DNA of 64,000 nt from Gemmatimonadota bacterium (GTDB taxonomy: Bacteria > Gemmatimonadota > Gemmatimonadetes > Longimicrobiales > Gaopeijiaceae): positions 62,001 to 126,000 of the forward strand of contig JAJDXM010000085.1 of assembly GCA_022823225.1 (NCBI GenBank). The letters are read 5' to 3'. Numbering within the stretch: the first letter of the stretch is position 1; every line of letters begins with the position of its first letter. This document shows, one piece after another, positions 58,149 through 62,038 of this stretch. The notes below the pieces were generated by a model. It was not told where the DNA came from, ran no database searches, and was given only the letters and a program-made list of their open reading frames with translations. The position numbers were made by a program, and so were the translations under genes.

Positions 58149-58859
58149 TCATACGAAGCCGTCCTTGGCCAGACTCCCGATGAACTCGCTGGCGAACCCC
58201 TCGAACTCTCCCAACACGAGATTCAGGCGCGCCGCGAAATGGTTGTAGGCGATCACCGAGGGGATGGCCACGGCAAGGCCGATCACGGTCGTGACAAGGG
58301 CCTCGGCCACCCCGGGCGCGACCGCCCCGATGTTCGCCGAACCCGCCTGCGTGATCCCGATGAAGGTGTTCATGACGCCGATCACCGTCCCCATGAGTCC
58401 GAGCAGCGGCGAGACCGAGCCGATGACCGCGAGCCAGTTGAGCCCGTGCCCAAGATCGTCGATCTCCTCCGCCTCGATCTTTTCGATCACCATGCGGAGC
58501 GCCTCGAGCTGCGTGAGCGAGAGTCCGGCGGCATGACCTTTCCCGCCGAGCGCACCCGGCCGCAGGTCGTCGAAGAAGCCGAGTCCGCCCTGAAAGAGGC
58601 GCGTATAGGGAGACGGCGGAAGCTTCTGAACCGCCTGGTACGCTTCGCCCAGGTTCGTCACGGACCCGAGGTGCGCCAGGAACCGGTCCCCCTCGGCGCG
58701 CACGCTGCGGAAGTGCCGGACCTTGGCGATGATCACCCAGAGGGAAACAACCGAGAAGAGACCCAGCACACCCAGCACGACGTGGGTCGGCGGGCTCGCC
58801 CCCACGATCATGTCGAGCATGCTGCGGGGCGTATCGGGCTGCATGAGCGTACCCTTCAC
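58149..58859 (-). CDS. tolQ: MotA/TolQ/ExbB proton channel protein
   Basis: 236 residues. Three predicted membrane helices: HVVLGVLGLFSVVSLWVII, then the conserved pair GLNWLAVIGSVSPLLGLMGTVIGVMNTF and VAPGVAEALVTTVIGLAVAIPSVIAYNHF, which line the proton channel. GTG 58859 overlaps the epimerase stop in GTGA; an ATG five codons on gives the more family-like MQPDTPRSML start. It is the first Tol gene of the operon. Confidence 0.94.
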   Translation of the reverse strand: MKGTLMQPDTPRSMLDMIVGASPPTHVVLGVLGLFSVVSLWVIIAKVRHFRSVRAEGDRFLAHLGSVTNLGEAYQAVQKLPPSPYTRLFQGGLGFFDDLRPGALGGKGHAAGLSLTQLEALRMVIEKIEAEEIDDLGHGLNWLAVIGSVSPLLGLMGTVIGVMNTFIGITQAGSANIGAVAPGVAEALVTTVIGLAVAIPSVIAYNHFAARLNLVLGEFEGFASEFIGSLAKDGFV

Positions 58860-59878
58860 CCGGTTGGCGCCGCGGCCCGCGACGACGCGATATCACAGAA
58901 GGTGCGCGCCAGGCCGTCGGCGAGCGAGTGCCTGGGCGACCATCCCATCGCCCGGAGCCGCCCCGTCGCCAGCACACTCCGCCTGAGCTCCCCGGGCCGG
59001 GCCGCCCGGTGCGCGCGCCCGGGCCGCACACCGGCGGCCTCCTCAAGGATGGCCGCCAGCGTGTTGACGCTGGTCGCGACCTCCGTGCCCACGTTGTAGG
59101 CTCTCGCGTCCAGCCCTTCCCCGTCCTCGAGCGGCATGTCCGCCGCCACCAGGTTGGCGCGCGCCACGTCCTCGACATGGATGTAGTCCCGCGTCTGTTC
59201 GCCGTCGCCGTAAATGATCAGGGGCTCCCTCTCGATCAGGCGGTTGGAGAATATGGCCACCACGCCGGCCTCCCCACTGGGATCCTGCCGCGGGCCATAA
59301 ACGTTGCCGTAGCGCAGCGCTACGTACTCGAGGCCATGCACCGCACGGTAGTAGCCGAGGTAGTATTCCCCGGCGAGCTTCGACACTCCGTAGGGGGACA
59401 GCGGACGCTTGGCCGCACTCTCCGGGGTGGGATTCGCATCCGGTTCGCCGTAGACCACCCCCCCGCTGGAAACGAAGACCACGCGGCGCGTTCCGGCCGC
59501 GCGCGCGCCCTCCAGGATATTGAGGAGCCCGGCGATGTTCACGGCGGCGTCCGCGACGGGATCGGCGACCGAAACGCGTACATCGATCTGGGCCGCGTGG
59601 TGGTTGATCAGGTCGAAGCCGACATCGCGAATCAGCTCCCTGGCGCGCGGATCGGCGATGTCCATCCGGACGAACTCGGCGTCGGCCGGCACGTTGGACA
59701 ATCGCCCCGAAGAGAGGTCGTCGATCACCCAGACGCGATCGCCCCGCGCGATATGGGCGTCCGCCGTGTGACTCCCAACGAAGCCCGCACCGCCAGTGAC
59801 CAGGACCCTCCGACTCGAACCGGAAATCGTCTCCAGACTCCTCCCCTTTCGCTGTGGTCGGACCGGCCGCCAGCGCAA
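58856..59878 (-). CDS. NAD-dependent epimerase/dehydratase (extended SDR)
   Basis: 340 residues as drawn. The Rossmann loop VLVTGGAGFVGSHTADAHI, NHHAAQIDVRVSVADP, VFVSSGGVVYGEP, the YxxxK dyad in SPYGVSKLAGEYYLGYY, and LRYGNVYGPRQDP fit UDP-glucose 4-epimerase/nucleotide-sugar enzymes. Product unknown; an envelope glycan role fits the Tol neighbours. TTG 59878 is the only ordinary start in frame, but the Rossmann fold starts only about 25 residues later; CTG 59836, six bases after AGGGG, is a possible start (326 residues). Confidence 0.88.
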   Translation of the reverse strand: MRWRPVRPQRKGRSLETISGSSRRVLVTGGAGFVGSHTADAHIARGDRVWVIDDLSSGRLSNVPADAEFVRMDIADPRARELIRDVGFDLINHHAAQIDVRVSVADPVADAAVNIAGLLNILEGARAAGTRRVVFVSSGGVVYGEPDANPTPESAAKRPLSPYGVSKLAGEYYLGYYRAVHGLEYVALRYGNVYGPRQDPSGEAGVVAIFSNRLIEREPLIIYGDGEQTRDYIHVEDVARANLVAADMPLEDGEGLDARAYNVGTEVATSVNTLAAILEEAAGVRPGRAHRAARPGELRRSVLATGRLRAMGWSPRHSLADGLARTFCDIASSRAAAPTG

Positions 59879-60039: not shown

Positions 60040-61197
60040 ATGATCGCCAGGAATCGCAGCCATTTGGCCTCCATCATGGATGGCCACATGAACCGCGTGC
60101 GCAACAGTGGCCCCGGCACGCCGGACGGCCGCAACGCCGCGCCGATCAAGACCTACCTGATCGAGGGATGCGGGCCCCTGCCCGACCCCGATGACGTGGT
60201 GGGGCCCTTCGGCACGCTGCGCTTGATCACGCAGGACCCGGTCCTAAGCGATCGATTCCCCGTGAGGATGCATCCCTCCAGCGATCCCTGCCTGGCAACG
60301 ATCAGGGGGCTCCGCGCGAACCATGCCCCCATCTCCTTTTACGTGGACTACACGGATCCGCGCTTCTGGCTGTTATACGGCTTCGCGCCCAGCAGAATAG
60401 CGGACAGGTTCATCTCCACGCTTGTCGCAACCCACCGGGACGTGGGCCGCACAACGTTCTGCAGCGAGTTTCTGTCGGCAGCAACCGACATCGGGTCCGC
60501 CGTCGCCCTTTCTCTCGACCACGAGGGCGTAATGGACGAGGAGGAAAAGGACGTGGCCCGTGTTCCCGAATCCGTGAAGGCACGCCTGTGGGGCACCCAG
60601 GCGGAGCGGCTGACGAACCTGATGCGCCAGCTCGGCTCGCTGTCGGACGGCATCGCGCTGTCGCAGGTCCGGTTGAGACACAGTCCCGGGAATCACGACT
60701 CCGAACGGTTCTCCCTGAACGATGTGAGGTTCGACGGCAGGATGATCACGCGCGGCACATCCTTCAGCGCGCACCGGTCGCTGGCGGAGGCCCTGCGGAC
60801 ACGATACGCCCGGCAGGTTGCGGACATCGAGTCCGGATACCAGGTGCGCCTCGAGGACTCGGGCGGAGTCCTTCTGGGGAAGTCGCTGGCCCTGCACCTG
60901 GCACGTCCCGTCCGGAACCTCCAACGGCTTTGCGAGAGGATCTTTTCGTCCGCCAGCCCCTTTCTGCTCTGGGGACTCCCGGTGCAACGCGGCCCCGGCA
61001 GTGTGTGCGTGAAGGCCGTCGACCTCGACCTGGGCCAACGCATGGACCTCGAATTCACACCGGATTTCATCCGGCTGTTCGTTCCGAAGGAAACATCGGG
61101 GAGCGCCGTTCTGCGCTTCTACACCAACGTTCAGCACCGTCTCGATCCTCGTGTGCGGATGCTGGACCAGGACGAGAATGAAATACTGCAGCCATAA
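60040..61197 (+). CDS. Uncharacterised protein, first gene of an orphan pair
   Basis: 385 residues from ATG 60040; family not recognised. No signal peptide, membrane helix, P-loop, nuclease or metal motif is evident. The middle (LANHAPISFYVDYTDPRFWLLYG-type aromatic stretch, then ISTLVATHRDVGRTTFCSEFLSAATDIGSAVALSLDHEGVMDEEEKDV) and the C-terminus (FTPDFIRLFVPKETSGSAVLRFYTNVQHRLDPRVRM) read as an alpha/beta cytoplasmic protein. Codon third positions look less GC-rich than in neighbouring genes. Its start is uncertain: no Shine-Dalgarno precedes 60040, 60079 or 59932. It is divergent from the epimerase and overlaps the next gene by 20 bases. Confidence 0.7.
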   Translation: MIARNRSHLASIMDGHMNRVRNSGPGTPDGRNAAPIKTYLIEGCGPLPDPDDVVGPFGTLRLITQDPVLSDRFPVRMHPSSDPCLATIRGLRANHAPISFYVDYTDPRFWLLYGFAPSRIADRFISTLVATHRDVGRTTFCSEFLSAATDIGSAVALSLDHEGVMDEEEKDVARVPESVKARLWGTQAERLTNLMRQLGSLSDGIALSQVRLRHSPGNHDSERFSLNDVRFDGRMITRGTSFSAHRSLAEALRTRYARQVADIESGYQVRLEDSGGVLLGKSLALHLARPVRNLQRLCERIFSSASPFLLWGLPVQRGPGSVCVKAVDLDLGQRMDLEFTPDFIRLFVPKETSGSAVLRFYTNVQHRLDPRVRMLDQDENEILQP

Positions 61198-62038
61198 GCT
61201 CTCTGTTCAGAACCTCCTGATCGGGATGTGCCGGGGATCGCCCGGAGTTCCCCGAACGATCAGGCGGATGGGGTACCGGGACCGCTGGATTGCGGGCAAC
61301 CTGCTCGGAAGGACCGGGACGGCGGCGGATCCGGTGCTGGTGCTGGCATCCGCCCAATCGCGCCACTCCTTCTTTGTCGAGGCGTGCGAAGAGCCGGAGA
61401 TGGATCCCGGGCGCCTCGACAGGTATGCGTCGGTGACGGCCGTGGACCTGCGCGAAAGGACCCCGCTGTCCCAGGATCAGACCGAGCTCTACGGCGTCGC
61501 GGTCTTCGGGCTGGAAGAACACCGCGACACTCTGCGAAGCAGCATTCGGGACAGCAAGCTGAAACCCACCCTGCTGCTGCGCACCGGGGACGGGCTGGTC
61601 ATCGACGCCAACCCGTTTCCCAAGGTTGCGCTGGCCAACCTCTTCCGTCCGGTTCTGTCCCTGGATTGGGAATCCGCCCCCCTGGGCTGGATCGCCTATG
61701 ACCACGAATCCAATCTTGCGGAGGTGGCGCAGGCCGTGATCCCGCAGGTCATCGCCTATGCGGCCGGAAGAGTGAACCGGGTGAAGATCGGCCGTGTCTG
61801 CGAGGATCACCTGCTTTGGGACCTCTCCACCCGGGCGGCCCGCAGGCAAATGCGCGCAAAGGTCAACGCCGCGCTTTCCTCCGCGGCCAGGCACGAATTC
61901 AGCGAGTTCTTCACCCTGCGCTCCGGAGCCCTGACGTTCTCCGGCACCGCGCAGGCGGCGATCCGGGCCCCGGGTTCGCCGACTCTGAAGAGGATGGCGC
62001 GCCACCACGCGGCCCTCCTGGAGCGGTTGGCCGGCTAG
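61178..62038 (+). CDS. Uncharacterised protein, second gene of an orphan pair
   Basis: 286 residues from ATG 61178; family not recognised. The first 35 residues are basic and cysteine-containing and could be untranslated if ATG 61226 or 61270 is used. Recognisable secondary-structure-like stretches are DPVLVLASAQSRHSFFVEA, TELYGVAVFGLEEHRD, LKPTLLLRTGDGLVIDANPFPKVALANLF, and a helical C-terminus (SPTLKRMARHHAALLERL). No catalytic motif is visible. It overlaps the preceding gene by 20 bases in a different frame, so the two products are probably made together. It is convergent with the SDR gene 83 bases away. Confidence 0.68.
   Translation: MKYCSHKLSVQNLLIGMCRGSPGVPRTIRRMGYRDRWIAGNLLGRTGTAADPVLVLASAQSRHSFFVEACEEPEMDPGRLDRYASVTAVDLRERTPLSQDQTELYGVAVFGLEEHRDTLRSSIRDSKLKPTLLLRTGDGLVIDANPFPKVALANLFRPVLSLDWESAPLGWIAYDHESNLAEVAQAVIPQVIAYAAGRVNRVKIGRVCEDHLLWDLSTRAARRQMRAKVNAALSSAARHEFSEFFTLRSGALTFSGTAQAAIRAPGSPTLKRMARHHAALLERLAG

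Follow-up and report, generated by a model that had tools for sequence, protein, structure and literature searches.

An overlapping gene pair at a fixed site in a Gemmatimonadota genus encodes a predicted degenerate PD-(D/E)XK-type protein and a putative nucleic-acid-binding partner

Introduction

What do two overlapping genes without any recognisable motif do at the point where the conserved tol operon ends, and how did they come to stand there? The question arises from a 64,000-nucleotide stretch of a Gemmatimonadota genome (contig JAJDXM010000085.1), referred to here as the window. In a preliminary description, the two genes were taken to suggest an acquired two-component functional unit, possibly a new effector with its partner. 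Here, we follow the pair through related genomes, plasmids and viral records, and we examine predicted structures of both products.

Results and discussion

Genomic context and composition of the gene pair

Gene A (60040–61197, plus strand, 385 aa) and gene B (61178–62038, plus strand, 286 aa) were found exactly where they had first been placed, sharing 20 bases (61178–61197) in different frames. The window genes lie mostly on the minus strand; when likely genes were identified from their codon-position GC, A and B were the sole adjacent plus-strand pair among 48. They are located just past the epimerase-tolQRAB block, in which tolQ and the NAD-dependent epimerase gene (58149–59878, minus strand) represent the left flank fixed across the genus. 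Neither protein gave a meaningful E-value against Pfam, NCBIfam, PADLOC or PDB sequences, in agreement with the initial impression that both lack known motifs; the Pfam matches of the window proteins (e.g. Fndc10 and DUF7609) were discarded as noise.

Two compositional arguments put forward earlier did not hold. The third codon positions, described as less GC-rich than those of the neighbours, have a GC content of 0.82 in A and 0.83 in B, within one standard deviation of the value for the likely window genes (0.84 ± 0.025). The GTGGAC motif, cited as a signal on the 3' side of the pair, is present in 67 copies in the window, 5 of them within 59–64 kb, and the two cited copies are without meaning because the motif is so common. 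The case for A and B as a real pair rests on their relatives, since every one of the 13 genomes that carry A has B directly downstream of it.

Distribution and insertion site in the genus

When 59 relatives were searched with each protein, the same 13 genomes were matched by A and by B, always in the order A then B. Twelve carriers, the window included, belong to the window's genus (Gemmatimonadota metagenome-assembled genomes), of which 23 genomes were sampled; the thirteenth, G056, comes from another family of the same taxonomic order. A profile of A run against 395 genomes of the phylum added nothing except one false match, and a profile that included plasmid homologues recovered the same 13 genomes again among 154 of the order. 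The false match, in G386, was rejected as a carrier: it reached an E-value of only 1.8e-5, and the locus is unrelated, its ORFs reading from their sequences as histone-deacetylase-like and nitroreductase-like.

All genus carriers with informative flanks have the pair at one site, between rimI (GNAT)-tsaB-uvrB and epimerase-tolQRAB; the contigs of G005 and G016 are too short to include both flanks. The corresponding site was empty in nine of ten non-carrier loci (G022 left out), where the epimerase gene is followed, after approximately 52–171 bases, by the rimI/tsaB side. The tenth locus, in G011, has lost synteny. In a five-marker tree without an outgroup root, most carriers form one well-supported clade, and a further carrier, G018, is placed among the non-carriers. 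Ancestral presence followed by losses is favoured over two insertions because site and orientation are identical in both groups. Additionally, omega was 0.13–0.28 for most pairs of genomes in both A and B, the exception being A in the most distant pair (0.43), and these values therefore indicate purifying selection on both genes.

In the genus, A/B is thus an old, vertically inherited and sometimes lost locus rather than a fresh acquisition. The native composition, the single fixed site and the purifying selection together contradict a recent arrival in the window genome. Strict vertical conservation beside tolQ, named beforehand as an outcome that would speak against a transferred system, was found in part: genus members that have the pair have it at the one site, but about half of the genus is without it.

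The right flank is less uniform. Between B and rimI, the window has an SDR gene and more sequence besides (62122–64300). This segment looks like an additional insertion because, G009 apart, every other carrier whose flanks could be read has rimI directly adjoining B. In G009 (L030:2934–8619), approximately 6.7 kb separate B from the rimI/tsaB side, and this stretch encompasses a Schlafen AlbA_2/HATPase_c_4/HTH gene adjoining B as well as a PD40 beta-propeller protein.

Homologues beyond the genus

The G056 pair is located elsewhere in its genome, in DNA of 49–53% GC surrounded by DNA of 70% GC, a contrast that indicates a clear transfer. The A protein of G056 matched plasmid-encoded proteins of Methanocaldococcus jannaschii, Lysinibacillus, Halobacterium and Metabacillus, with E-values from 5e-18 to 8e-36, in addition to a weak piece in Salinibaculum. 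On all four plasmids a B homologue starts inside the end of A, with overlaps of 20, 32, 8 and 4 bases, respectively; in the window and the 12 relatives B directly adjoins A. Alignment of the genus A profile with A proteins from outside the genus gave an E-value of 3.4e-60 (hhalign). A belongs to the phrog_22469 family (E 2.6e-30), for which M. jannaschii was the sole control genome matched, and two B homologues, P0003 and P0001, matched phrog_27163 (1.9e-8 and 5.9e-4, respectively).

Four plasmid A and two plasmid B proteins used as queries returned the same few records, with one weak Natronosalvus piece extra. The unit is therefore rare on plasmids, though widely spread, with 4 solid cases among 72,556; these plasmids and a single further Gemmatimonadota genome are all that anchors the wider family. 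Scans of IMG/VR with A profiles, a B profile and a single A protein gave no relative, and the phage records searched yielded one insignificant match and no relative. The anti-phage profiles of PADLOC 2.0, which includes no such system, gave nothing meaningful for A, B or their homologues. The literature found on the M. jannaschii MJECL genes has YTH/m6A and a histone variant as its subjects, not the A/B pair.

Defence-related or toxin genes were observed next to the pair at a few loci. These include the PADLOC candidate PDC-S28 on the Lysinibacillus plasmid (E 3e-282), a GajA/AriA/OLD-like ATPase on the M. jannaschii plasmid, a PemK/MazF toxin gene on the Metabacillus plasmid and the Schlafen-type gene of G009; none was seen at the Halobacterium locus or in most genus members. 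The neighbour genes thus give hints of a role in defence or conflict. The earlier description as a new effector/partner pair suits the family, whose two genes form a two-component unit and always adjoin each other. The proposal of an acquired system survives for the family as a whole, which has moved between very distant lineages and in several cases lies near plasmid defence or toxin genes, but not as a recent event in the window genome.

Two further neighbourhoods were recorded. Just upstream of the M. jannaschii pair (L064:4300–7076), the GajA/AriA/OLD-like gene, of ATPase-TOPRIM type, is accompanied by a gene for a 292-aa protein without a Pfam or PADLOC match. In G056, a DUF5615/PIN-like gene (L031:14401–14754) lies approximately 4 kb from the transferred pair.

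Protein B

Profile-profile alignment and an AlphaFold2 model of moderate confidence (pLDDT 73.7, pTM 0.51) point to a degenerate PD-(D/E)XK core at residues 33–144 of B (61274–61609, plus strand). The predicted strands (33–38, 53–58 and 63–70, then helices and a strand at 104–112) follow the order expected for this fold, and residues 180–254 (61715–61939, plus strand) form a predicted winged-helix-like tail. Foldseek matches of the model were weak: the best clearly relevant PDB entry was XisH (E 0.07, probability 0.80), and MukE, similarly weak, corresponded to the tail. Homology to the proteins outside the genus is much clearer, with an E-value of 1e-25 between the B proteins of the window and G056 (BLASTP) and a probability of 99.4 (E 1e-21, hhalign) between genus B and the outside profile. 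In all five non-genus B proteins the motif (PD or PE, then ExK or DxK) is intact, one of them without the proline, and it occupies the strand-strand register of PD-(D/E)XK nucleases.

Within the genus, both the catalytic D/E and the (D/E)xK motif are absent from the window B and from all 11 relatives. The acid of the PD motif, at Val53 (61334–61336, plus strand), is replaced by Val or Leu in all 12 proteins; the lysine of the second motif, at Glu68-Ala69-Cys70 (61379–61387, plus strand), is likewise lost in 12 of 12, and Glu68 has become Gln in four. The window B thus descends from the superfamily but, by its motif, is not an active member. Their loss therefore makes the canonical mechanism unlikely in genus B, as judged from the sequences.

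Genus B could still be catalytic if its active site had been rewired to use alternative residues, e.g. Glu68, Glu103, His63 or Arg34. PD-(D/E)XK enzymes can relocate catalytic residues, which provides a precedent, and the genus conserves three of the candidates, Arg34, His63 and Glu103. However, every genus member has lost both the acid and the lysine, Glu68 is not retained in all of them and the site has no substitute lysine, and we consider a rewired enzyme very unlikely. Glu103 itself (61484–61486), where the fourth core strand begins, does not vary across the genus and G056, and the Lysinibacillus B protein has an equivalent Glu.

Protein A

Judged by its strand order, the AlphaFold2 model of A (pLDDT 77.5, pTM 0.82) contains two predicted TBP-like lobes, at residues 36–131 (60145–60432, plus strand) and 283–367 (60886–61140, plus strand). 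The first was recognised with Foldseek and from its topology, read by eye as a strand, helices, four strands and a helix. An internal repeat between the lobes was not detected by sequence profile-profile comparison. The best Foldseek match of the model was budding-yeast Iml3 (CENP-L; E 8.5e-5, probability 1.00), with low TM-scores of 0.26–0.39; weaker matches included RnlA, AdoMetDC and KA1 domains, and among viral models TBPs and one phage RdgC were returned. Low TM-scores would be expected if the lobes were arranged differently, and they make the fold call provisional. Provisionally, then, the model of A resembles nucleic-acid-binding folds of the TBP type (Iml3/CENP-L, RnlA, RdgC and TBP). 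RexA, RdgC, Iml3 and Chl4 have been linked as one DNA-binding fold (PMC11077077), and for RnlA and RNase HIII, recognition of nucleic-acid duplexes has been linked with their TBP-like domains (PMC7221094, PMC3710099); duplex binding is thus a property of these folds. The earlier statement that the function is not inferable from the sequence was thus too pessimistic, given a degenerate PD-(D/E)XK protein B and a TBP/RdgC/CENP-L-like model for A.

The same structural matches would suit a recombination, repair or element-maintenance complex of RdgC/CENP-L type, concerned with DNA handling or plasmid partition and not with defence. Iml3/CENP-L is the closest match of A and RdgC was matched too, the homologues are carried on plasmids, and a non-cutting form in the genus fits a DNA-binding role. 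Even on plasmids, however, the pair is rare and patchy, the nuclease motif is intact outside the genus and some loci have defence genes nearby, so this reading appears unlikely.

The resemblance of A to the TBP-like part of RnlA also bears on a toxin–antitoxin or addiction module, in which A would restrain B as a nuclease toxin and the genus would keep only an inert remnant. Two small overlapping genes, probably co-transcribed, and plasmid locations close to VapC and PemK genes agree with such a module. On the other hand, the larger protein A is better conserved than B at long range, which is unusual for an antitoxin; neither a HEPN nor a known toxin domain is present; and the mostly low omega values are contrary to an inert remnant. 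We regard an addiction module as rather improbable.

Proposed function and significance

We favour, with a confidence slightly better than even, the interpretation that A/B is an uncharacterised, mobile, cross-domain nuclease-recogniser pair, probably serving anti-element defence, which persists in the genus in a non-cutting form. In the putative active form, found in archaea, Bacillota and G056, the lobes of A would bind a nucleic-acid duplex, and A would position or license B to cut it. We infer that the two proteins form a complex; its likely role would be to defend against mobile elements or to serve in competition between them. The pair would have entered the ancestral lineage of the genus between rimI and the epimerase-tolQ operon, and the loss of the catalytic acid and lysine from B would predate the divergence of the carriers. 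Since then, purifying selection has maintained the pair, apart from some losses, and it would persist as a non-cutting complex probably acting by DNA binding. Of these elements, the family, the pairing, the site, the missing residues and the selection are observed, and the folds, the complex, its binding to nucleic acid and its role are inferred. A more far-reaching version, which we advance tentatively as possible but short of an even chance, is that this is an ancient, unrecognised two-gene system of a free-standing TBP/CENP-L-like recogniser and a PD-(D/E)XK nuclease, and that one symbiont genus disarmed the nuclease and then domesticated the system, so that defence by cutting gave way to DNA binding without cutting.

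The unit is common to methanogens, haloarchaea, Bacillota and Gemmatimonadota and has no Pfam, NCBIfam or PADLOC model. The proposal offers a testable role for two anonymous PHROGs and for a gene pair on the 58-kb M. jannaschii plasmid. The genus would represent a natural experiment in which a nuclease subunit was inactivated in the ancestor and the pair is still under selection. Furthermore, if A is truly RdgC/CENP-L-like, a prokaryotic group would join a fold that is also found at the kinetochore.

Comparison with known systems

The closest counterparts are the phrog_22469/phrog_27163 families and the M. jannaschii genes MJ_RS09135/MJ_RS09130, which have the gene order and overlap of the window pair. 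PHROGs records a function for neither family. The B proteins of the genus and of G056 differ from phrog_27163 in giving no match to it, and those of the genus also in lacking the catalytic residues.

Among characterised proteins, the A model is related by its matches, best to Iml3 and weakly to RdgC, to the RexA/RdgC/Iml3-Chl4 fold (PMC11077077). Sequence similarity to A is absent, and A is longer, with predicted TBP-like lobes at both ends. RexA is likewise one half of a two-gene unit, but A is paired here with a PD-(D/E)XK-type protein, and RexB is not known to be of this type.

RnlAB (RNase LS) and RNase HIII combine a TBP-like recognition module with a nuclease (PMC3710099, PMC7221094), as proposed here for A and B, and RnlAB is a two-gene anti-phage unit. 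The nuclease in those systems is a HEPN or RNase H domain fused to the TBP-like part, whereas here it would be a separate PD-(D/E)XK protein; neither A nor B had a Pfam or PADLOC match to the HEPN RNase domain or the RnlB partner that define RnlAB.

Finally, the non-genus B homologues have the strand order and motif of PD-(D/E)XK nucleases such as XisH and the N-terminus of type I R subunits, with weak matches to XisH and HSDR_N_2. The B family is set apart from these nucleases by its predicted winged-helix-like tail, by the loss of the catalytic residues in the genus and by its constant partner A.
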